A stretch of DNA of 64,000 nt, taken from Bacteroides sp. (lineage in GTDB: Bacteria; Bacillota; Clostridia; Lachnospirales; Lachnospiraceae). Of this stretch, positions 7,958 through 28,400 are shown piece by piece; the first letter of the stretch is position 1; the number at the start of each line of letters is the position of its first letter. The notes beneath the pieces were generated by a model. The model was not told the origin of the DNA, did not search any database, and worked only from the letters and a program-made list of their open reading frames with translations. The translations under genes were made by a program, and so were the position numbers. The stretch spans positions 62,001 through 126,000 of the forward strand of contig JAMPBO010000003.1 of NCBI GenBank assembly GCA_023666705.1. Direction: 5' to 3'.

Positions 7958-7972
7958 AACAATTAAACAGAT

Positions 7973-8092
7973 ACTTCGGGGCAGGGTGAAATTCCCGACC
8001 GGCGGTGTGTGCATTTGCATGAGCCCGCGAGCCTTATGGCAGATTCGGTGTGATTCCGAAGCCGACAGTACAGTCTGGATGGAAGAAGAATG
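7973..8092 (+). ncRNA. FMN riboswitch (RFN element)
   Basis: The conserved RFN blocks are visible in order: CTTCGGGGCAGGGTGAAATT, CCCGACCGGCGGT, AGCCCGCGAGC, GATTCGGTGTGATTCCGAAGCC, GACAGT, and AGTCTGGATG...GAAGAAG. It begins 15 bp after the TPR gene and precedes a terminator and ribD. FMN binding is expected to favour the terminator and shut off the rib operon. Confidence 0.97.
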
Positions 8093-8141
8093 GTTGATAT
8101 CATATCACGTATTGTTTATGTGATAGGTTTTTTGGCTAAGT

Positions 8142-20396: not shown

Positions 20397-20425
20397 TTGA
20401 CAATTGAAGTCGCAGGTGATATGAT
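20397..20425 (+). promoter_or_regulatory. Promoter of the cysteine leader peptide-metNIQ operon
   Basis: TTGACA (20397-20402), 17-bp spacer, TATGAT (20420-20425). It is followed 14 bp later by the shared cysteine-regulon operator. Confidence 0.85.
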
Positions 20426-20439
20426 GTGCAACATAAACA

Positions 20440-20467
20440 TATTAAACCCATTATATTAATAGGAATA
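20440..20467. promoter_or_regulatory. Shared operator, site A (metNIQ)
   Basis: 28-bp site: TATTAAACC, an 11-bp AT-rich middle, TAGGAATA. The same frame occurs at 25443 (cysK) and 28373 (iscS), each 14-15 bp after a -10. Likely target of the linked Rrf2 regulator at 26665 (inference). Confidence 0.65.
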
Positions 20468-20484
20468 TAGAAAGGAGAAAGCAT

Positions 20485-20580
20485 ATGAAAAGAACAAATT
20501 TATTCATGACAATGTACATGTGTTGTTGCAGGACTGTAAAAGTAAATACAGTTCCCTTTTCGTATGCACATTGTACGTAA
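20485..20580 (+). CDS. Cysteine-rich leader peptide (31 aa)
   Basis: A 31-codon ORF that ends just before the attenuator. AAAGGAG lies 7-8 bp before the ATG, a strong site for so short an ORF. The peptide carries three consecutive Cys codons (TGT TGT TGC, 20521-20529; residues 13-15 in MYMCCCRTV) and a fourth Cys at residue 30. The coding region can fold: ACTGTA/TACAGT sits inside ACAATGT (20509) / ACATTGT (20568). AACCG (20579) can pair with CGGTT (20599), which is part of the terminator stem. This is the architecture of a leader peptide that senses charged tRNA-Cys: ribosome stalling at the Cys run would allow read-through into metNIQ. Confidence 0.75.
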   Translation: MKRTNLFMTMYMCCCRTVKVNTVPFSYAHCT

Positions 20581-20597
20581 CCGATAACGCTGAATAT

Positions 20598-20632
20598 GCG
20601 GTTGCCATTTGTGTCATGGCAGCCGCTTTTTT
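20598..20632 (+). terminator. Attenuator terminator upstream of metN
   Basis: GCGGTTGCCAT, 7-nt loop, ATGGCAGCCGC, TTTTTT. It lies 17 bp after the leader-peptide stop and before the first transport gene. Confidence 0.9.
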
Positions 20633-20730
20633 ACTTTATAGGAAATTCCTCTGAATTTCCTATAGGCAGGATTAAAAATCCTGCTAAGATACGAACTGCA
20701 GTGCCAAAGGCACTTTGTTCTTTTATAGGA
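20631..20730 (+). repeat. Three-hairpin repeat element, copy B
   Basis: Starts TTACTTTATAGGAAATTCC inside the attenuator T-tract. Hairpins: ATAGGAAATTC/GAATTTCCTAT, GCAGGATT/AATCCTGC, AGTGCC/GGCACT, with the CTGCTAAGAT-CGAACTGC linker. It fills most of the space between the attenuator and metN. Confidence 0.75.
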
Positions 20731-20744
20731 AAAGAGGTGAGCAA

Positions 20745-21782
20745 ATGCCGGAGATTGAACTTTTACATATCAGCAAATCCTTTCAGACAAAGGAGGGAAG
20801 CGTTCAGGCATTAAAGGATGTGAATTTATCCATAGAGACAGGAGACATATATGGCATTATCGGTATGTCGGGTGCAGGTAAAAGCACATTGGTACGATGT
20901 ATGAATTATTTGGAAATTCCATCGGAGGGCGTAGTGAAGCTTCAGGGTGAGGAGCTTGCAAAATTATCGGATAGACAGCTTAGAAAGAAAAGGGAAAAGG
21001 CAGGAATGATATTTCAGCATTTCAATCTGCTGATGCAAAAGAATGTGCTTAGCAATATTTGCTTTCCACTGTTAATTCAGGGTACATCCAAAGGTGATTC
21101 AGAAAAACGGGCAATGGAGCTGTTGGAGATGGTTGGCATGACGGATAAGGCAAAGGCATTCCCATCACAACTGTCAGGCGGGCAAAAGCAGAGAGTTGCA
21201 ATCGCAAGGGCACTTGCCAGCGAACCAAAGATTTTACTTTGTGATGAGGCAACCAGTGCATTAGACCCACAAACAACATCCGCCATCTTAGAGCTGCTGA
21301 AAAAGATAAACCGCGAACTGGGAATTACAATCGTTGTAATTACGCATCAGATGTCAGTTGTGCGGCAGATTTGCAACAAGGTTGCTATTATGAAGGAAGG
21401 GCAGATTGTTGAAACGGGCAACACACTTGATATTTTCAGTCATCCGAAGTCTGAGGTTGCAAGGGAGCTGCTTCGGACGGATGTAGATGTTCAGGCAGAG
21501 AAAAAAGTGCTTTGGGAAGTAGATAATATCAAAGGCGGAAGCAGACTAAGAATTGTATATTCTGCAAATTCCGCATTTGAGCCTGTAATTGCAAATATGA
21601 TACTCAAATTTAATGAGCCCGTAAACATACTGAAGGCAGCTACAAGAAATGTAGGTGGTGTGGCAAAGGGTGAAATGATATTGGAGCTTTTAAAAACATC
21701 AGAGAAGAAAAATGAAATGATAACTTATCTGAAGGAGCGGAATATAGAAATAGAGGAGCTTGACGGAAGGGAGGAAGTGTAG
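20745..21782 (+). CDS. metN: Methionine/cysteine-type ABC transporter ATPase MetN
   Basis: ATP-binding subunit of a MetNIQ-type importer for methionine or related sulfur compounds. Walker [10 protein letters not shown], signature LSGGQKQRVAIARAL and Walker B ILLCDEATSALDP are intact. The C-terminal ~75 residues (from LRIVYSAN) are the NIL regulatory domain found in MetN. The ATG at 20745 follows AGAGGTGAG; an upstream ATG at 20715 reads through the repeat element and was rejected. 345 residues. Control by Cys attenuation plus the operator suggests that cysteine/cystine-related compounds are the substrate (inference). Confidence 0.93.
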   Translation: MPEIELLHISKSFQTKEGSVQALKDVNLSIETGDIYGIIGMSGAGKSTLVRCMNYLEIPSEGVVKLQGEELAKLSDRQLRKKREKAGMIFQHFNLLMQKNVLSNICFPLLIQGTSKGDSEKRAMELLEMVGMTDKAKAFPSQLSGGQKQRVAIARALASEPKILLCDEATSALDPQTTSAILELLKKINRELGITIVVITHQMSVVRQICNKVAIMKEGQIVETGNTLDIFSHPKSEVARELLRTDVDVQAEKKVLWEVDNIKGGSRLRIVYSANSAFEPVIANMILKFNEPVNILKAATRNVGGVAKGEMILELLKTSEKKNEMITYLKERNIEIEELDGREEV

Positions 21783-22442
21783 ATGTGGACAGAACAAATC
21801 ATTTCCATGATAGGAAAGGGAATTTTGGAAACGCTCTATATGACCGTAGTATCGACAGGATTGGGTTATGCTTTTGGACTTCCCATGGGAGTGCTGCTCT
21901 GTATAACGGATAAGGATGGTTTGAAACCAAATCAGGTAGTATACAAAATATTGGACGTCATCGCAAATGTGGTGCGAAGCATACCATTTTTGATTTTACT
22001 GATTTTGTTAATACCATTTACCAGATTCCTTTTGGGAAAAAGCTATGGGTCTACGGCAACGATTGTGCCGCTGGTGGCTGCAGCTACACCCTTTATCGCC
22101 AGAATGGTGGAATCTTCTTTAAAGGAGGTGGACGCAGGCGTTGTGGAGGCTGCCAAATCAATGGGAGCAGGAACCTTTACCATTATTACGAAGGTTTTAC
22201 TGGTAGAGGGCAGAACCTCACTGATTACGGGAGTGACAATCGCAATTGGAACCATACTTGGCTACTCCGCCATGGCGGGAACAGTCGGAGGCGGCGGGCT
22301 TGGCGATATAGCAGTCCGCTATGGATATTATAGATATCAGACAGATATTATGCTTGTTACAGTTATTTTACTGGTCTTATTGGTGCAAATTTTTCAAACG
22401 GTTGGCATGTTCATCGCAAATCGTATGGATAAGCGTAGATAG
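21783..22442 (+). CDS. metI: ABC transporter permease MetI
   Basis: 219 residues, about five membrane helices, with the permease EAA motif (VEAAKSMGAGTFTIITKVLL) that contacts MetN. It starts 1 bp after metN ends, so it is translationally coupled. Membrane channel of the MetNIQ importer. Confidence 0.94.
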   Translation: MWTEQIISMIGKGILETLYMTVVSTGLGYAFGLPMGVLLCITDKDGLKPNQVVYKILDVIANVVRSIPFLILLILLIPFTRFLLGKSYGSTATIVPLVAAATPFIARMVESSLKEVDAGVVEAAKSMGAGTFTIITKVLLVEGRTSLITGVTIAIGTILGYSAMAGTVGGGGLGDIAVRYGYYRYQTDIMLVTVILLVLLVQIFQTVGMFIANRMDKRR

Positions 22443-22484: not shown

Positions 22485-23306
22485 ATGAAAAAAATATGGA
22501 AGAAAATTTTAACAGTTTCACTTATTGGTGCACTATTGACGGGTGTGCTGGCAGGATGCGGAAAATCCGAGGATGACAAAAAAATCAAGATTGCAGCTTC
22601 CGCAACGCCGCATGCAGAGATTTTGGAGAAGGCAAAGCCGCTGCTAGAGGAGAAAGGGTATACATTGGAGATTACGGTTTTTGATGATTATGTTCAGCCG
22701 AACCTTGTTGTGGAAAGTGATGAGTTTGACGCAAATTACTTCCAGCATATTCCTTATTTGGATGATTTCAACAAGGAAAATGAAACCCATCTTGTTAATG
22801 CAGGCGGTATTCACTATGAGCCATTCGGTATTTATCCGGGAACAAAGAAAAGCTTAAGTGATATTGCAGACGGCGATACAATAGCCGTTCCAAATGATAC
22901 GACAAATGAGGCAAGAGCATTATTGCTCCTTCAGGATAATGGCATTATTACCTTGAAGGAGGGCGTGGGACTTGAGGCTACAGTAAATGATATTGTGGAA
23001 AATCCTCATAATGTCAAAATTGTGGAGCTTGAGGCGGCACAGGTAGCAAGAGTCGTTGACGAAACGTCTTATGTGGTGTTAAACGGTAACTATGCACTTG
23101 AAGCAGGCTTTTCCGTAAAGAAGGATGCTATTGCATATGAGCTGTCAGATTCGGAAGCAGCCCAAACCTATGTTAATGTAATTGCCGTAAAGGAGGGCAA
23201 CGAGAATGCTAAGAAAATCAAAGCATTAATTGAGGTATTAACATCCGATGACATTATGAATTATATTAATGAAACCTACGATGGGGCTGTTGTGCCATTC
23301 AAGTAA
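22485..23306 (+). CDS. metQ: MetQ/NlpA-family substrate-binding lipoprotein
   Basis: 273 residues. Signal peptide with lipobox LAGC (Cys near residue 26). The mature part has the NlpA family start KIKIAASATPHAEILEKA and the conserved FDANYFQHIPYLDDFN and HYEPFGIYPG stretches. It delivers the ligand to MetNI on the outer face of the membrane. AAAGAGGAG precedes the ATG. Confidence 0.94.
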   Translation: MKKIWKKILTVSLIGALLTGVLAGCGKSEDDKKIKIAASATPHAEILEKAKPLLEEKGYTLEITVFDDYVQPNLVVESDEFDANYFQHIPYLDDFNKENETHLVNAGGIHYEPFGIYPGTKKSLSDIADGDTIAVPNDTTNEARALLLLQDNGIITLKEGVGLEATVNDIVENPHNVKIVELEAAQVARVVDETSYVVLNGNYALEAGFSVKKDAIAYELSDSEAAQTYVNVIAVKEGNENAKKIKALIEVLTSDDIMNYINETYDGAVVPFK

Positions 23307-23341
23307 ACTATTTGTAAAAGGATATAAGAGGGTTATACATA

Positions 23342-24610
23342 ATGCTGCATATTGAATTTGATGCTGTAAAAGAGCGTATTTTGGAAGGATGCTTTGGACT
23401 GGAAAAGGAAAGCCTGAGGATAAAAAAAGATGGCACGTTATCCCACTCGCTGCATCCGTTTCCAAACGATACACATATCGTAAAGGATTTTTGTGAAAAT
23501 CAAACAGAAATTAATACGTCGGTGCATAACAGTGCAAAAGAAGCGATTGAGGAGTTGGAATTTCATAACAGGCGTATTTATGAAAGCTTAAAGGCACTTT
23601 CGGAAAGAGAGTACCTATGGCCATTTTCCAATCCGCCGTATATTCAAAATGAAAGTGATATACCTGTTGCAGTTTTTGAAGGCATCGAGGTGTCGAAAAC
23701 TGCATACAGGGAATACCTGTCCGCCAAATATGGAAAATACAAAATGACCTTTTCAGGTATTCACGTAAATTATTCATTTTCTGAGGAGCTGCTAAAAGCA
23801 GATTACGAACACCAGGAGGGGCTTGCTTATCAGGAATTTAAAAACACATTTTATCTGGAGCTTGCACAGAAACTGGCAATGTATGGATGGCTGCTTGTGG
23901 CAGTGACTGCGGCAAGTCCGGTTTTGGACAGCTCATTTGTGGAAAAAGGTATTTACGGTCAGGACGTATTTACAGGGATGGCGTCGGTCAGATGTGGAGA
24001 GATGGGATATTGGAATGAGTTTGCACCCATTTTCGATTACCGGGATATTTCCGCATATGCAGGCAGCATACAAAAATACGTGGATATGGGACTCTTGAAA
24101 GCCGCTTCGGAATTGTATTATCCGATACGGTTAAAGCCGAAGGGAGAAAATAATTTAGAGTCGCTATGTAAAAACGGTGTCAATCATATCGAGCTTAGAA
24201 TGTTTGATTTAAATCCGCTTGTAAGTACAGGCGTAGATGAAAGGGATATTATCTTTGCACAGCTTTTAATGGTTTGGCTTGCATCGACGCCCAATCAGCC
24301 GCTCAGTGAAAAAGACCAGATTCAGGCAGTGCAGAATTTCAAAAATGCAGCACGTTATGATTTAAAGACAGTCAATATATTGACGCCGAAGGGAGAAACA
24401 TATTCGGTCGCCGACGCAGCGTTAAAGGTAATCGGCATAATGAGAGAATTCTTTAATAGACTTTCATTAGATGTTGATGAAATCCTGCAGTTTGAGTATG
24501 AGAAATTCACGGATGCAGAAAACAGATATGCGTGGAAAATAAGAAAACAATTCGGAGGCGGATATGTGAAAAAGGGACTGGAGCTTGTAATGGAAAGGCA
24601 GGGAAAATAA
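23342..24610 (+). CDS. gshA: Glutamate--cysteine ligase (GshA type)
   Basis: 422 residues of the ATP-dependent glutamate-cysteine ligase family (type 1). It starts with GCFGLEKESLRI, followed by FCENQTEINTSVHNS, PYIQNE, SGIHVNYSFSEELL and the C-terminal NHIELRMFDLNPL, all typical. It would make gamma-glutamylcysteine. No glutathione synthase domain or gene is present. It sits between metQ and an EgtC-like amidohydrolase that starts at the next base, and lies in the cysteine-controlled region. The end product (gamma-Glu-Cys itself or a protected cysteine) is open. Confidence 0.88.
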   Translation: MLHIEFDAVKERILEGCFGLEKESLRIKKDGTLSHSLHPFPNDTHIVKDFCENQTEINTSVHNSAKEAIEELEFHNRRIYESLKALSEREYLWPFSNPPYIQNESDIPVAVFEGIEVSKTAYREYLSAKYGKYKMTFSGIHVNYSFSEELLKADYEHQEGLAYQEFKNTFYLELAQKLAMYGWLLVAVTAASPVLDSSFVEKGIYGQDVFTGMASVRCGEMGYWNEFAPIFDYRDISAYAGSIQKYVDMGLLKAASELYYPIRLKPKGENNLESLCKNGVNHIELRMFDLNPLVSTGVDERDIIFAQLLMVWLASTPNQPLSEKDQIQAVQNFKNAARYDLKTVNILTPKGETYSVADAALKVIGIMREFFNRLSLDVDEILQFEYEKFTDAENRYAWKIRKQFGGGYVKKGLELVMERQGK

Positions 24611-25381
24611 ATGTGTGAATTGTTTGGCGTAAGCTCCTGCAATAAGCTTGAATTAAATGATTTACTTCGGGAATTTTTTTCCCACAGCGTAAATCACCCG
24701 AATGGATGGGGAATGGCTTTCTTTTACGGAAATGCAGTGTCCTTGGAAAAACAGCCTGAAGCGGCTTACAAAAGCTCCTATCTGAAACAAAGGCTGCAAT
24801 TTAAGATAGAAGCGGATAACATGATAGCACATATAAGGCTTGCAACACGTGGAAATCTCAATTATGAAAACACGCATCCATTTGTAATGAGAGACAGCAG
24901 TAACAGGACATGGACATTGGCACATAATGGGACAATTTTTGATTGTGACCGATTGAACCCGTTTGTACACAGCCAGCAGGGGCAGACTGACAGCGAGAGA
25001 ATTTTGGCATATATGATAAGCCGGATGAATTTGGAGTATGAGAAGAAAAAAGAGCTGTCAGGAAAGGAACGGTTTGCCCTGATTGATGAAATCCTGGGCG
25101 AAATAGCTGCGGAAAACAAGGTAAATCTTTTGCTGTTTGATGGAGAATTTATGTATGCACATACAAATTATCAAAATAGCTTATACAGATGCCAAAGAAA
25201 TGATGCAGTTGTAATATCAACGGTTCCCCTTGATTACCATGAATGGGAGCCTATGCCGATGAATACGTTGGTTGCTTATCAGGATGGAAGACAGGTATAC
25301 GTGGGAACAAACCATAAAAATGAGTTTTTCGAAACGGAAGAAAAAATGCGGTTATTGTTTTTGGATTTTGCAAATTTATAA
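24611..25381 (+). CDS. Class II glutamine-amidotransferase-like hydrolase (EgtC/YafJ type)
   Basis: 256-residue N-terminal-nucleophile hydrolase. Cys2 (MCELFGVS) would be exposed after Met removal. Other active-site features: NHPNGWGMAFF, HIRLATRG, NTHPF and LAHNGTI. EgtC, the best-known relative, cleaves gamma-glutamyl amides in ergothioneine synthesis. No synthase or synthetase domain is attached, so a stand-alone gamma-glutamyl hydrolase is plausible. It begins directly after the gshA stop codon, pointing to a two-step gamma-glutamyl cycle (inference). No EgtB or EgtD gene is in the window. Confidence 0.82.
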   Translation: MCELFGVSSCNKLELNDLLREFFSHSVNHPNGWGMAFFYGNAVSLEKQPEAAYKSSYLKQRLQFKIEADNMIAHIRLATRGNLNYENTHPFVMRDSSNRTWTLAHNGTIFDCDRLNPFVHSQQGQTDSERILAYMISRMNLEYEKKKELSGKERFALIDEILGEIAAENKVNLLLFDGEFMYAHTNYQNSLYRCQRNDAVVISTVPLDYHEWEPMPMNTLVAYQDGRQVYVGTNHKNEFFETEEKMRLLFLDFANL

Positions 25382-25399
25382 CGAAAATCTGCAAAACGG

Positions 25400-25428
25400 T
25401 TGACAAGAGGAACGTGTATCATTATAAT
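25400..25428 (+). promoter_or_regulatory. Promoter of cysK
   Basis: TTGACA (25400-25405), 17-bp spacer, TATAAT (25423-25428): a perfect consensus, with the shared operator 14 bp downstream. Confidence 0.88.
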
Positions 25429-25442
25429 GTAACAGAATAACC

Positions 25443-25470
25443 TATAAATCCTATTTATAAAGTAGGTAAA
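25443..25470. promoter_or_regulatory. Shared operator, site B (cysK)
   Basis: TATAAATCC, 11-bp AT-rich middle, TAGGTAAA: same spacing as sites A and C. A weak MITE-end-like stretch (TGTACCTTGCAT...TTATTGTACAA, 25494-25526) follows in the leader. Confidence 0.6.
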
Positions 25471-25587
25471 TAATGACGTGGATATGACAAAAGTGTACCT
25501 TGCATGATTAGTCGTTATTGTACAATGGATGTCTAAGGAAGCAGAGCTTTGTTTATGGAAAAAAATTAAATTTAGGAGGTAAGTATT

Positions 25588-26526
25588 ATGAGTCAGATTA
25601 AAGAAAGCACATTGGAGTTAATTGGAGGAACTCCGATACTGAAATTAAACAGATATGCAAAGAAGGCGGGGGTTGTGGATGCTTCCATTCTTGCAAAATT
25701 GGAATATCTGAATCCTGCGGGCTCCGTAAAGGACCGTATTGCATTAGCAATGATTGAGGATGCGGAAAAGAAAGGCTTGTTAAAGGAAGGTGCTACGATT
25801 ATTGAGCCGACAAGCGGAAATACGGGAATTGGGCTTGCAGCGGTTGCGGCAGCAAAGGGATATCAGGCAATCCTGACATTACCTGATACCATGAGCGTGG
25901 AAAGAAGAAATCTTTTAAAGGCGTATGGTGCGAAACTTGTACTTACGGAGGGTGCTAAGGGAATGAAGGGAGCCATTGCCAAGGCTGAGGAGCTTTCTAA
26001 GGAAATTGATGGAGCAATAATCTTAGGTCAGTTTGTGAATCCTGCAAACCCTGCAATTCATAAGGAAACAACAGGACCGGAAATTTGGGAGCAGACAGAT
26101 GGAAAGGTTGATATTTTCGTTGCAGGTGTAGGAACAGGCGGAACTATCACAGGTGTAGGCGAATATTTAAAAGAAAAGAATCCGAATGTAAAAATTGTGG
26201 CAGTTGAGCCTGCAGGAAGCCCTGTTTTGTCAAAGGGTACGCCAGGTGCACATAAAATTCAGGGAATCGGTGCAGGCTTTGTGCCTGATGTACTGAATAC
26301 AAAGGTGTATGATGAAATTATCACAATCGAAAATGAGGATGCATTTGCAGAGGGCAGAGCGTTTGCCGTAAGCGAAGGAATTTTGGTCGGCATATCCTCC
26401 GGAGCGGCACTGAAAGCGGCAACGATTCTTGCGGGCAGACCTGAAAATAAGGGAAAGACAATTGTTGCATTGCTTCCTGACTCAGGAGACAGATATTTAT
26501 CTACACCATTGTTCAACAATAATTAA
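25588..26526 (+). CDS. cysK: Cysteine synthase A (O-acetylserine sulfhydrylase)
   Basis: PLP enzyme joining O-acetylserine and sulfide to cysteine. The PLP lysine motif [11 protein letters not shown] is near residue 42, PTSGNTGIG near 73, [10 protein letters not shown] near 180, and the C-terminal [12 protein letters not shown] is present. 312 residues, normal. TTAGGAGG precedes the ATG. It has its own consensus promoter and operator, and a terminator isolates it from the Rrf2 gene. Confidence 0.97.
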
Positions 26527-26546
26527 TCAAATCAAATGACTGCGTG

Positions 26547-26592
26547 AAAAACCATAGGCTTTGTTAAATGATTAACAAGCCTTTGGTTTTTT
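26547..26592 (+). terminator. Terminator after cysK
   Basis: AAAAACCATAGGCTTTGTTAA pairs across an ATGA loop with TTAACAAGCCTTTGGTTTTTT. Confidence 0.9.
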
Positions 26593-26664
26593 ATTGGAGC
26601 CTGTGGCAATTGACGGTATTGTCCGAATTTATATAGGCACATAGCTTATGGAAAAGGAGATTTT

Positions 26665-27102
26665 ATGAGGATATCGACAAGAGGAAAAAATGCAATAAAA
26701 CTGATGCTTGATTTGGCAATATACAACAATGGTGAACCTGTAAGATTGAAGGATATTGCCAAAAGACAACATATATCTGAAAAGTACCTGGAGCAAATTG
26801 TTGCAGTACTGCATAAGGCAGCACTGGTAAAAAGCATCAGGGGAGCACATGGAGGGTATGTCCTAAAATATAAGCCTGAAGAATACACGGTCGGACAAAT
26901 TTTAAAGACTGTGGAAGGGGATATGTCACCGACAGATTGTGTGGGAGAAAATGGAATTGCCTGTGAAAACAAGGGTACATGTGTCAGCTTTCGGTTGTGG
27001 GAAAAACTGGATATGGCTATCAATGAAGTATTGGAAGGAATTACATTGGGGGATATGCTGGAATGGCAAAATGAACTTTTAACTGACCAATATGTAATTT
27101 GA
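26665..27102 (+). CDS. Rrf2-family regulator with three cysteines (IscR/CymR-like)
   Basis: 145 residues. N-terminal winged helix typical of Rrf2 (RISTRGKNAIKLMLDLA; RLKDIAKRQHISEKYLEQI; IRGAHGGYVL). Cys92, Cys100 and Cys106 (C-x7-C-x5-C) are where IscR-type regulators bind an iron-sulfur cluster. The location between cysK and mnmA-iscS-iscU, and a shared operator at three sulfur promoters, make it the best candidate regulator of this region, acting like CymR (cysteine) or IscR (Fe-S) (inference). AAAAGGAG precedes the ATG. A TTGACG sequence at 26610 may belong to its promoter. Confidence 0.9.
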   Translation: MRISTRGKNAIKLMLDLAIYNNGEPVRLKDIAKRQHISEKYLEQIVAVLHKAALVKSIRGAHGGYVLKYKPEEYTVGQILKTVEGDMSPTDCVGENGIACENKGTCVSFRLWEKLDMAINEVLEGITLGDMLEWQNELLTDQYVI

Positions 27103-27140
27103 TATGCAGTATGTCTGGTGGAAAAGCTGCCGAGACAGAA

Positions 27141-27213
27141 GTCAGCCCATGAGTTTTCGATTTACAAAAGTAAATCGGAGCATATGCTGAAAGCAAATTT
27201 GGAATGGGCTGAC
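27141..27213 (+). repeat. CAGCCCAT/ATGGGCTG palindromic element, copy 1
   Basis: GTCAGCCCAT (27141-27150) pairs with ATGGGCTGAC (27204-27213). An inner hairpin GATTTAC/GTAAATC and the segment GAAAGCAAATTTGGA are enclosed. The right part is nearly identical to the element at 33481. It lies 24 bp before mnmA. Confidence 0.7.
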
Positions 27214-27237
27214 GTTCAATACTTGTGAGGTAAAGGA

Positions 27238-28317
27238 ATGAAGAATCAGAAAACAGTGGTTGTGGGTATGTCCGGTGGCGTGGATTCGTCCGTGGCTGCT
27301 TATTTATTAAAGGAGCAGGGCTATCATGTAATCGGCGTGACAATGCAGATTTGGCAGGATGAGGAGCAGCAAAGGCTGGAGCTGGAAGGTGGCTGTTGCG
27401 GGCTTAGTGCCGTTTGGGATGCAAGGAGAGTGGCAGATGTATTAAACATTCCACATTATGTGATGAATTTTAAGCATGAGTTTAAAACAAATGTCATTGA
27501 TTATTTTATACGGGAATATCAGGCTGGACGTACGCCAAATCCATGTATCGCCTGTAACAGATATGTAAAATGGGAATCGCTGCTGCAGCGAAGCATGGAA
27601 ATTGGGGCAGATTATATTGCAACAGGACATTATGCAAAAATACGTCAGCTGGAAAATGGACGCTATACAATCGAAAAATCGGTAACTGTCCAAAAGGATC
27701 AGAGCTATGCCTTGTATAATCTGACGCAGGAACAGCTTTCGAGGACCTTGATGCCCATAGGCGGGTATACAAAAGAGAAAGTACGGGAAATCGCAAATGA
27801 AATAGGGCTTTCCGTAGCACAAAAGCCGGACAGCATGGAGATATGCTTTGTGCCAGATGGCGATTACGCATCCTATATAGAGGAAACCACAGGCGTAAAA
27901 TCAGAGGCAGGTAATTTTGTAGATACACAGGGACGTGTACTAGGGACCCATCGTGGAATTATCCACTATACAGTCGGGCAGCGGAAAGGGCTCGGTTTGT
28001 CCCTCGGTTATCCTGCATTTGTGATTGAAATTAAGCCGCATACGAATGAAGTCGTAATTGGGAAATTAGAGGATAATTTGTCGGAAAAGGTGTATATATC
28101 CCAAGTAAATTATATGTCGGAGGCTGATTTATCAGAAAATAAAACCTACCTGGGGAAGATACGCTATAATCACAAGGGTGCAGAATGTACGGTGCGGCAG
28201 GTGGGACCTGATAAGTATGAATGTGTTTTTTCTAAGCCGCAGAGGGCAGTGACACCGGGACAGGCATTGGTATTATATGATGGGGACCTTGTAGCAGGCG
28301 GAGGGACAATCCTGTAA
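27238..28317 (+). CDS. mnmA: tRNA-specific 2-thiouridylase MnmA
   Basis: Installs the 2-thio group on U34 of tRNA-Lys/Glu/Gln using sulfur from a cysteine desulfurase. PP-loop GMSGGVDSSVAAYLL near residue 10, catalytic CXXC-type cysteines in NPCIACNRYVKW (near 100) and the second Cys in EICFVPDGDY (near 203). 359 residues is normal. TGAGGTAAAGGA precedes the ATG. The following iscS is the expected sulfur donor. Confidence 0.96.
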   Translation: MKNQKTVVVGMSGGVDSSVAAYLLKEQGYHVIGVTMQIWQDEEQQRLELEGGCCGLSAVWDARRVADVLNIPHYVMNFKHEFKTNVIDYFIREYQAGRTPNPCIACNRYVKWESLLQRSMEIGADYIATGHYAKIRQLENGRYTIEKSVTVQKDQSYALYNLTQEQLSRTLMPIGGYTKEKVREIANEIGLSVAQKPDSMEICFVPDGDYASYIEETTGVKSEAGNFVDTQGRVLGTHRGIIHYTVGQRKGLGLSLGYPAFVIEIKPHTNEVVIGKLEDNLSEKVYISQVNYMSEADLSENKTYLGKIRYNHKGAECTVRQVGPDKYECVFSKPQRAVTPGQALVLYDGDLVAGGGTIL

Positions 28318-28372: not shown

Positions 28373-28400
28373 TATTAAACCTATATATTAAATAGGAATA
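28373..28400. promoter_or_regulatory. Shared operator, site C (iscS)
   Basis: TATTAAACC, 11-bp AT-rich middle, TAGGAATA: both outer halves identical to site A. Confidence 0.65.

Follow-up and report, generated by a model that had tools for sequence, protein, structure and literature searches.

A probable cysteine leader-peptide attenuator upstream of metNIQ, and a wider set of Met/Cys-rich leaders in Lachnospiraceae

In Firmicutes, cysteine and methionine genes are usually under the control of SAM riboswitches, T-boxes and CymR. Ahead of sulfur genes in Mycobacterium and other Actinobacteria, short upstream ORFs (uORFs) with Cys-codon runs have been described (PMC1262725, PMC4633059). These uORFs have no conserved terminator (PMC1262725), and those of M. 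smegmatis are said to act by translation attenuation (PMC13236596, citing Canestrari 2020). The motif uORFC-8-2, predicted to be an attenuator, combines tandem Cys codons with a terminator U-run and is described exclusively upstream of cysS in Rhodobacterales; its first stem contains the Cys codons, and no mention is made of a Met run (PMC8632094). Histidine leader peptides before hisZ/hisS* in Firmicutes are ordinary leader-peptide attenuators in Gram-positives where T-boxes are usual (PMC2965389). A literature search, with most subscription papers and preprints outside its reach, found no Cys/Met leader peptides described in Lachnospiraceae or before metNIQ.

Here, we analyse such a leader in a 64-kb stretch of DNA (the window). 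The sequence-only reading had proposed that a 31-codon ORF with three consecutive Cys codons lies between a promoter and a terminator upstream of metNIQ, and all of these parts could be located (Table 1). As in trp/his-type attenuators (for Actinobacteria, as far as described in PMC1262725), the leader ORF holds a run of regulatory codons, a terminator precedes the first gene and the antiterminator reaches the leader stop; here, however, the codons are for Cys and Met, the relatives are, judging by their record titles, Lachnospiraceae, the operon encodes an importer instead of a biosynthetic pathway, and the 1:2 hairpin is only a candidate. The ORF looks translated and sits behind a promoter, and the antiterminator, which is exclusive with the terminator, could be masked at the stop codon; its covariation support comes from the wider loci, the four rows from the closest relatives being not above shuffles. 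Compared by description only, uORFC-8-2 shares the tandem Cys codons and the terminator U-run, but the window leader precedes metNIQ instead of cysS, and its nearest named records are Clostridium sp., with others from Lachnospiraceae instead of Rhodobacterales. Unlike the mycobacterial polycysteine uORFs, it has a strong terminator, and it differs from the actinobacterial Cys uORFs in having a Shine-Dalgarno sequence and an intrinsic terminator opposed by a covarying antiterminator. The hisZ/hisS* leaders, as described, concern another amino acid and another gene.

Table 1. Features of the metNIQ leader and the genes behind it (positions in the window)
Feature	Position	Strand	Basis
Sigma-70-type promoter TTGACA-N17-TATGAT, TG ahead of second hexamer	20397..20425	+	11/12 consensus matches
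Degenerate palindrome TTCCTA-N9-TAGGAA, candidate Rrf2/CymR-type operator	20445..20465	+	3 mismatches; putative function
Shine-Dalgarno AAAGGAG of leader ORF	20471..20477	+	sequence
Start-codon helix, 5' half, 12 pairs, would cover leader start codon	20481..20492	+	inverted repeat I3
Leader ORF, 31 codons, MKRTNLFMTMYMCCCRTVKVNTVPFSYAHCT; stop TAA 20578-20580	20485..20580	+	sequence and relatives
Cys codons 13-15 (TGT TGT TGC), consecutive; proposed stall site	20521..20529	+	CCC present too in L002-L005
Start-codon helix, 3' half	20556..20567	+	partner of 20481-20492
Region 2 (GUAC + GUAACCG), antiterminator 5' half, overlaps leader stop codon	20573..20583	+	
Intrinsic terminator, stem 20598-20626, 11 pairs, T6 tail	20598..20632	+	-19.5 kcal/mol
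Region 3, terminator 5' arm + loop	within 20598..20632	+	
metN, ABC transporter ATPase	20745..21782	+	TIGR02314 E 3e-110, below curated cut-off
metI, permease	21783..22442	+	NF008049 E 2e-63, above cut-off
metQ, substrate-binding lipoprotein	22485..23306	+	NF008285 E 1.4e-57, below cut-off
Glutamate-cysteine ligase-like gene (gshA-like), probably cotranscribed	23342..24610	+	NF002688 E 1e-78, below cut-off
EgtC-like class II glutamine amidotransferase, probably last gene of unit	24611..25381	+	TIGR03442 E 7e-17, below curated cut-off

The leader ORF is the only one of the window's 173 short ORFs preceded by a Shine-Dalgarno sequence to contain a Cys-Cys-Cys (CCC) run. Markov-random 64-kb sequences contained 0.2 such ORFs on average, with one present in 6 of 30; because random sequences sometimes contain a CCC run, the run by itself is weak evidence. 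On the comparisons below, it is conservation rather than the run that lifts the leader above chance. The proposed pairing of AACCG with CGGTT is present at the leader stop, though slightly longer than claimed (GUAACCG 20577-20583 with CGGUUGC 20599-20605), and GUAC (20573-20576) can additionally pair with GUGU (20611-20614). The duplex between leader end and terminator arm in the window reaches p 0.045 against shuffles. Between 20434 and the terminator, the fold of the RNA has a z of -2.7 (2 of 200 shuffles are as good); up to metN, z is -5.7, much of which is owed to two further inverted repeats before metN (20637-20684). In the window sequence alone, 20509-20519 is 91% complementary to 20564-20574 (inverted repeat I7), a candidate 1:2 pause/protector hairpin. 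The gap between terminator and metN contains, in loci L001-L003, a segment of about 90 bases (20633-20720) with two perfect inverted repeats; L004 lacks it, and there the terminator T tract lies 30 bases before metN.

The leader peptide was searched in 195 relatives' genomes and found upstream of metN in five genus genomes (the window's own, G015, G001, G036 and G011). A MetQ match exists in 19 genus genomes, and its identity reaches 84% or more in exactly these five. Conservation of the Cys run had been named as a check on the sequence-only reading, and CCC is kept in all five. Peptide identity drops to 65-68% in the closest genomes while YMCCC is retained, and the second Cys codon shows a synonymous TGT/TGC change among relatives. 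A sixth match (L006 in G121, 50% identity, E 3.6e-4, CCC present) was dropped, as it is not beside metN, metI or metQ; the remaining matches of this single-peptide search had E 0.008 or worse, leaving only the five true leaders. By eye, L001 and L002 seem unrelated immediately upstream of the promoter, although their leaders and operons hardly differ, as though everything from promoter to operon had moved as a unit.

As the leaders of L001 and L002 are identical, the locus alignment consists of four distinct leaders (L001, L003, L004 and L005). In these, the compensatory changes that had been asked for are seen in both alternative stems: the antiterminator is paired in 44/44 cells with one pair changed on both sides, yet 83/500 shuffles match its score with these four rows, and the terminator is paired in 43/43 cells with two pairs changed on both sides. 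The start-codon helix is paired in 48/48 cells with no pair changed on both sides; taken together with the terminator, its covariation score is reached by 29/500 shuffles. Sliding the antiterminator partner by one to three columns reduces pairing to 18-61%. In L004, the peptide stops three codons earlier, and the RNA pairing stays complete. With four rows and a shuffle control that is not exceeded, covariation at the locus is consistent with the switch but not conclusive.

To look beyond these close relatives, we scanned upstream of Met-importer operons for ORFs of 15-60 codons, preceded by a Shine-Dalgarno sequence, with at least 6 Met/Cys within 14 residues. The 114 loci scanned (54 found by MetQ in genome contigs and 60 regions from relatives, two sources sharing part of their loci, with duplicates retained) were reduced to 102 by leaving out 9 without a gene match and 3 with too little upstream sequence. 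A Met/Cys-rich leader ORF precedes 25 of these 102 operons, with a terminator detected after 24 of the 25; by this strict scan, the other 77 have no such leader. A looser scan of the 9 loci without a gene match and 7 misses added six more leaders with a terminator. Example leaders are MNQLKAMQMNMYMMNGMMMCRMSMCVKNRK, MTNTYTLQMNMMSLMCGMAMCGMIFCMEKF..., MRYKVSQSNNMNMMMCCGHMCGSMYMAYCCACYDT and MQIGTSGNFTAMMRMMCCSMVMCMTNGVC; many relatives' leaders contain more Met than Cys. Locus L161 (duplex p 0.28), which has 5 Met/Cys in 14 and was recognised only on visual inspection, stands outside the 25 and counts as a miss in the Fisher tests below, and a Cys-rich ORF at L123 was dropped, as by eye it looked like the end of a protein gene.

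In the first set, the contig loci found by MetQ, 4/49 metN upstream regions passed the scan. Upstream regions of other long ORFs in the same loci passed in 14/360 cases, 11 of which are the first gene of a Met-importer operon, leaving 3, and mononucleotide-shuffled metN upstream regions passed in 0/2450. Not all regions without metN are true negatives: in several, the first gene is a fusion of a family-3 amino-acid substrate-binding protein (SBP) and MetQ. A pattern search found a TTGAC-type promoter in 22 of the 27 leader loci with enough upstream sequence.

Leader profiles were also searched against genomes. Profile A1, built from 12 leaders and run in six frames, gave 21 matches at E up to 0.05 in 397 family genomes, 18 of them just upstream of metN; without the nine seed genomes, 9 of 12 matches were at metN, and four of these nine were in congeners of the seeds. 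Profile A2 (19 leaders) gave 10 matches in 392 order genomes, nine at metN and one not, and 2 matches in 291 class genomes, both already-known family members. Profile A3, for a second subtype described below, gave 5 matches in 123 class genomes, one a family member, and nothing convincing outside the family; at the other four (L239-L242), the scan showed no Cys/Met-rich short ORF. In the genomes sampled, profile matches are thus confined to one family, taken to be Lachnospiraceae from the titles of its named members. In the MetQ-based set, a few leaders occur in records of Gemmiger (L063), Ruminococcus (L080), Clostridiales (L081) and Firmicutes CAG:176 (L079). In the window's own genome, profiles A1 and A2 found only the known leader, profile A3 found no second leader at E 0.01, and no Cys leader precedes the closest metY homologue (L236). 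A long perfect palindrome, AACCTAGTAT-N10-ATACTAGGTT, precedes the L236 gene.

We tested duplex formation between the leader end and the terminator 5' arm with its loop at 28 loci, using 400 dinucleotide shuffles. Terminators were set by hand at five of them (L041, L118, L161, L162 and L194), where the automatic scan missed or misplaced them. The duplex reached p < 0.05 at 17 of the 28 loci and did not at 11, with loci inside one subclade not being independent. Combining ten subclades by Fisher's method gave p 8.8e-6 when the representatives were chosen with their values already known, and p 6.5e-4 when each subclade was represented by its worst member. Each leader end also paired better with its own partner than with swapped ones (permutation p 2e-4, nine representatives); across all 320 choices of ten representatives, the median p was 0.002 and the largest 0.014. 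Within the MNQ/CGM subtype alone, the same comparison gave p 0.035 (12 loci). In this subtype, the start of an RNA motif near UAUGGAUUGUG ranges, relative to the last base of the stop codon, from 19 bases upstream to 13 bases downstream. As it occurs in all three frames, and past the stop in 6/14 loci, this UAUGGAUUGUG-like motif is conserved at the RNA level. At L046, L049, L052 and L135, inspection by eye shows that a conserved UGUCAUGC-like segment in the later part of the leader is the complement of the bases between Shine-Dalgarno and start, which echoes the start-codon helix of the window leader.

A second, Cys-heavier subtype (consensus ...MCCMCMCRMLxSQA...) lies before the SBP/MetQ fusion genes. 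Here, the leader sequence CUCCC(A/G)GGCA pairs with the terminator arm UGCC(U/C)GGGAG. Alignment A4 covers 9 of the 11 loci of this subtype, leaving out L131 (bulge) and L124 (GTG start); it was assembled in the register of the proposed pairing and includes L047 on sight, the scans having found no terminator there. The pairing holds in 98.9% of 90 cells; changes on both sides affect six cells, which belong to two pairs. The share of paired cells, the number of changed cells and the covariation score were each above all 500 shuffles, whereas the count of pairs with both sides changed (140/500) and that of additional pair types (500/500) were not; slid registers pair at most 54%. For the competing 1:2 hairpin together with the terminator, 88.1% of cells are paired, which is not above shuffles. 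Some of the both-side changes fall within the ORF and alter the peptide (Ser-Gln-Ala vs Ser-Arg-Ala) with pairing kept. Across 16 loci of the second and other subtypes, the duplex test gave p < 0.05 at 9 and not at 7, and own pairs were better than swapped ones in both the 9 second-subtype loci (p 8e-4) and the other 7 (p 0.002). Relative to the last Met/Cys codon in the dense stretch, the pairing segment begins between 6 bases upstream and 13 bases downstream in 9/9 loci. This geometry, with pairing right after the Cys codons and not at the stop, is not explained by the simple model set out below.

In the 397 family genomes, profile A3 gave 33 matches in 29 genomes. We fetched 30 of these loci and judged 22 to have a leader and terminator (two being seeds); seven look like noise, and L209 is without a call. 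The next gene at the 22 loci is an SBP/MetQ fusion in seven (L206, L207, L208, L210, L211, L212 and L225), an O-acetylhomoserine sulfhydrylase in five (L216 scanned and above cut-off, the others by eye) and GST-like in two (L218 scanned). Single loci have a (2S)-3-sulfopropanediol dehydratase-like gene (partial, below cut-off), a similar SBP, metN, an amino-acid ABC permease, a putative cyclase, an HD domain gene, a DUF2292 gene and a contig end. An assignment of the fusions as cystine receptors was not borne out: the lysine/arginine/ornithine model scores best and the cystine model lower, both below cut-off. The fusion is perhaps a dual receptor.

Taken together, the leader very probably belongs to a transcription attenuator of the ribosome-mediated type, which would sense how much charged tRNA-Cys (and probably tRNA-Met) is available and control metNIQ and the genes behind it. 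This reading, already proposed from the single locus, is borne out by the conserved CCC run and the pairing at the locus, and much more strongly by the wider relatives. With ample cysteine, the ribosome would reach the stop codon and cover region 2, allowing the terminator to form and stop transcription. Under cysteine shortage, it would instead stall at the Cys codons, 43 bases short of region 2, and as these bases lie between them, region 2 would be left free. It could then pair with region 3 before the terminator 3' arm is made, giving read-through into metNIQ-gshA-egtC. Structure predictions fit this sequence of events: before the 3' arm is made, the region 2:3 pairing is the predicted fold (-10.9), and with region 2 masked or no ribosome at all, the predicted fold is the terminator, so that the default state would be off. 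Once the 3' arm exists, the terminator (-19.5) is favoured over the antiterminator (-4.6, evaluated as drawn) even with a stalled ribosome; because the terminator is far more stable, the switch would have to be kinetic. As many relatives' leaders are rich in both Met and Cys, methionine codons are probably sensed too.

The signal itself could also be mainly methionine, or general sulfur amino-acid supply, with the ribosome stalling at the Met codons of MTMYM and Cys being accessory. The same anatomy would serve: Met codons 8, 10 and 12 directly precede CCC, metNIQ is a methionine importer by homology, and Met outnumbers Cys in many of the relatives' leaders. Within the window's clade, however, CCC is invariant, whereas one Met codon is Ile in L004, and the second subtype is Cys-heavier and precedes sulfhydrylase and sulfonate-type genes besides importers; we hence regard a mainly methionine signal as rather unlikely. 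A functional small Cys/Met-rich peptide, for instance a metal- or thiol-binding one, with a terminator that merely divides two units, seems much harder to uphold. Its composition would suit metal binding, and some of the peptides are well conserved within subclades, but the leader-end RNA motif persists in every reading frame and past the stop codon, compensatory changes in the second subtype alter the peptide while pairing stays, and 24/25 leaders have a terminator between themselves and the importer gene; we consider this highly improbable. A ligand-binding riboswitch or T-box with a fortuitous ORF is hardly credible. SAM riboswitches (RF00162) and T-boxes (RF00230) likewise give RNA control of Met/Cys genes in Firmicutes and are frequent on their sulfur operons; among 40 Met-importer stretches used for comparison, Rfam found two of each. 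Neither the window leader nor 38 further leader loci (19 second-subtype and 19 others) have an Rfam match, however, and conservation of the leader ORF centres on the Cys/Met codons. The sole Rfam match in the window is an FMN riboswitch (RF00050, 116 bits) at 7968-8094.

Regulation could instead lie at the promoter alone, with a CymR-like Rrf2 repressor and a constitutive leader terminator. The palindrome TTCCTA-N9-TAGGAA occurs upstream of the leader start with at most 2 mismatches in 11/27 loci, several of which are close relatives, and an Rrf2-family regulator gene lies at 26665-27102, next to cysK. For this protein, the IscR and CymR models score about equally, both below cut-off, making it a candidate repressor for the palindromes. 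On the other hand, 16/27 loci are without a good palindrome, and a repressor alone leaves the conservation of leader peptide and antiterminator unexplained, so promoter control by itself appears improbable. A CymR-like repressor may nevertheless act in addition to the attenuator. A palindrome resembling those before metNIQ leaders, ATCCTATTTATAAAGTAGGTA (site 25448), is found in the cysK promoter region (25400-25468), and a further similar one at 28378-28398; the total count of palindrome matches across the whole window is not above chance.

The attenuator would probably act on more than the importer. A terminator scan of 23200-27300 found none, and cysK has its own consensus promoter at 25400 (12/12 matches); on these grounds, the transcription unit probably reaches the EgtC-like gene. 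That last gene had been taken for an amidohydrolase, but instead resembles EgtC-type glutamine amidotransferases (Table 1).

The distribution of leaders suggests that this switch is not peculiar to the metNIQ locus but one of a set on sulfur amino-acid genes, the same logic recurring, with different leader and RNA sequences, before relatives' sulfur-amino-acid operons. We think it likely, from sequence comparison, that Lachnospiraceae have a Cys/Met leader-peptide attenuation regulon, in which at least three dissimilar leader/RNA subtypes have converged on one switch, doing what T-boxes and SAM riboswitches do elsewhere, in some cases with a CymR-like operator. Besides methionine importers, such a regulon would likely take in the SBP/MetQ fusions (importers that may handle cystine and methionine), O-acetylhomoserine sulfhydrylase, a GST-like gene, a glycyl radical enzyme resembling sulfopropanediol dehydratase and further genes.

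If this is true, the Met/Cys attenuator family would be a new sensor class for sulfur amino acids, and would provide a sequence marker for transporters and sulfur-scavenging enzymes switched on under cysteine starvation. Many of the Lachnospiraceae records used here come, judging by their titles, from gut samples. The divergent switches would also let the minimum needed for attenuation be read from sequence, and the substrate range of MetNIQ-type importers would become testable via the amino acids that their leaders count.
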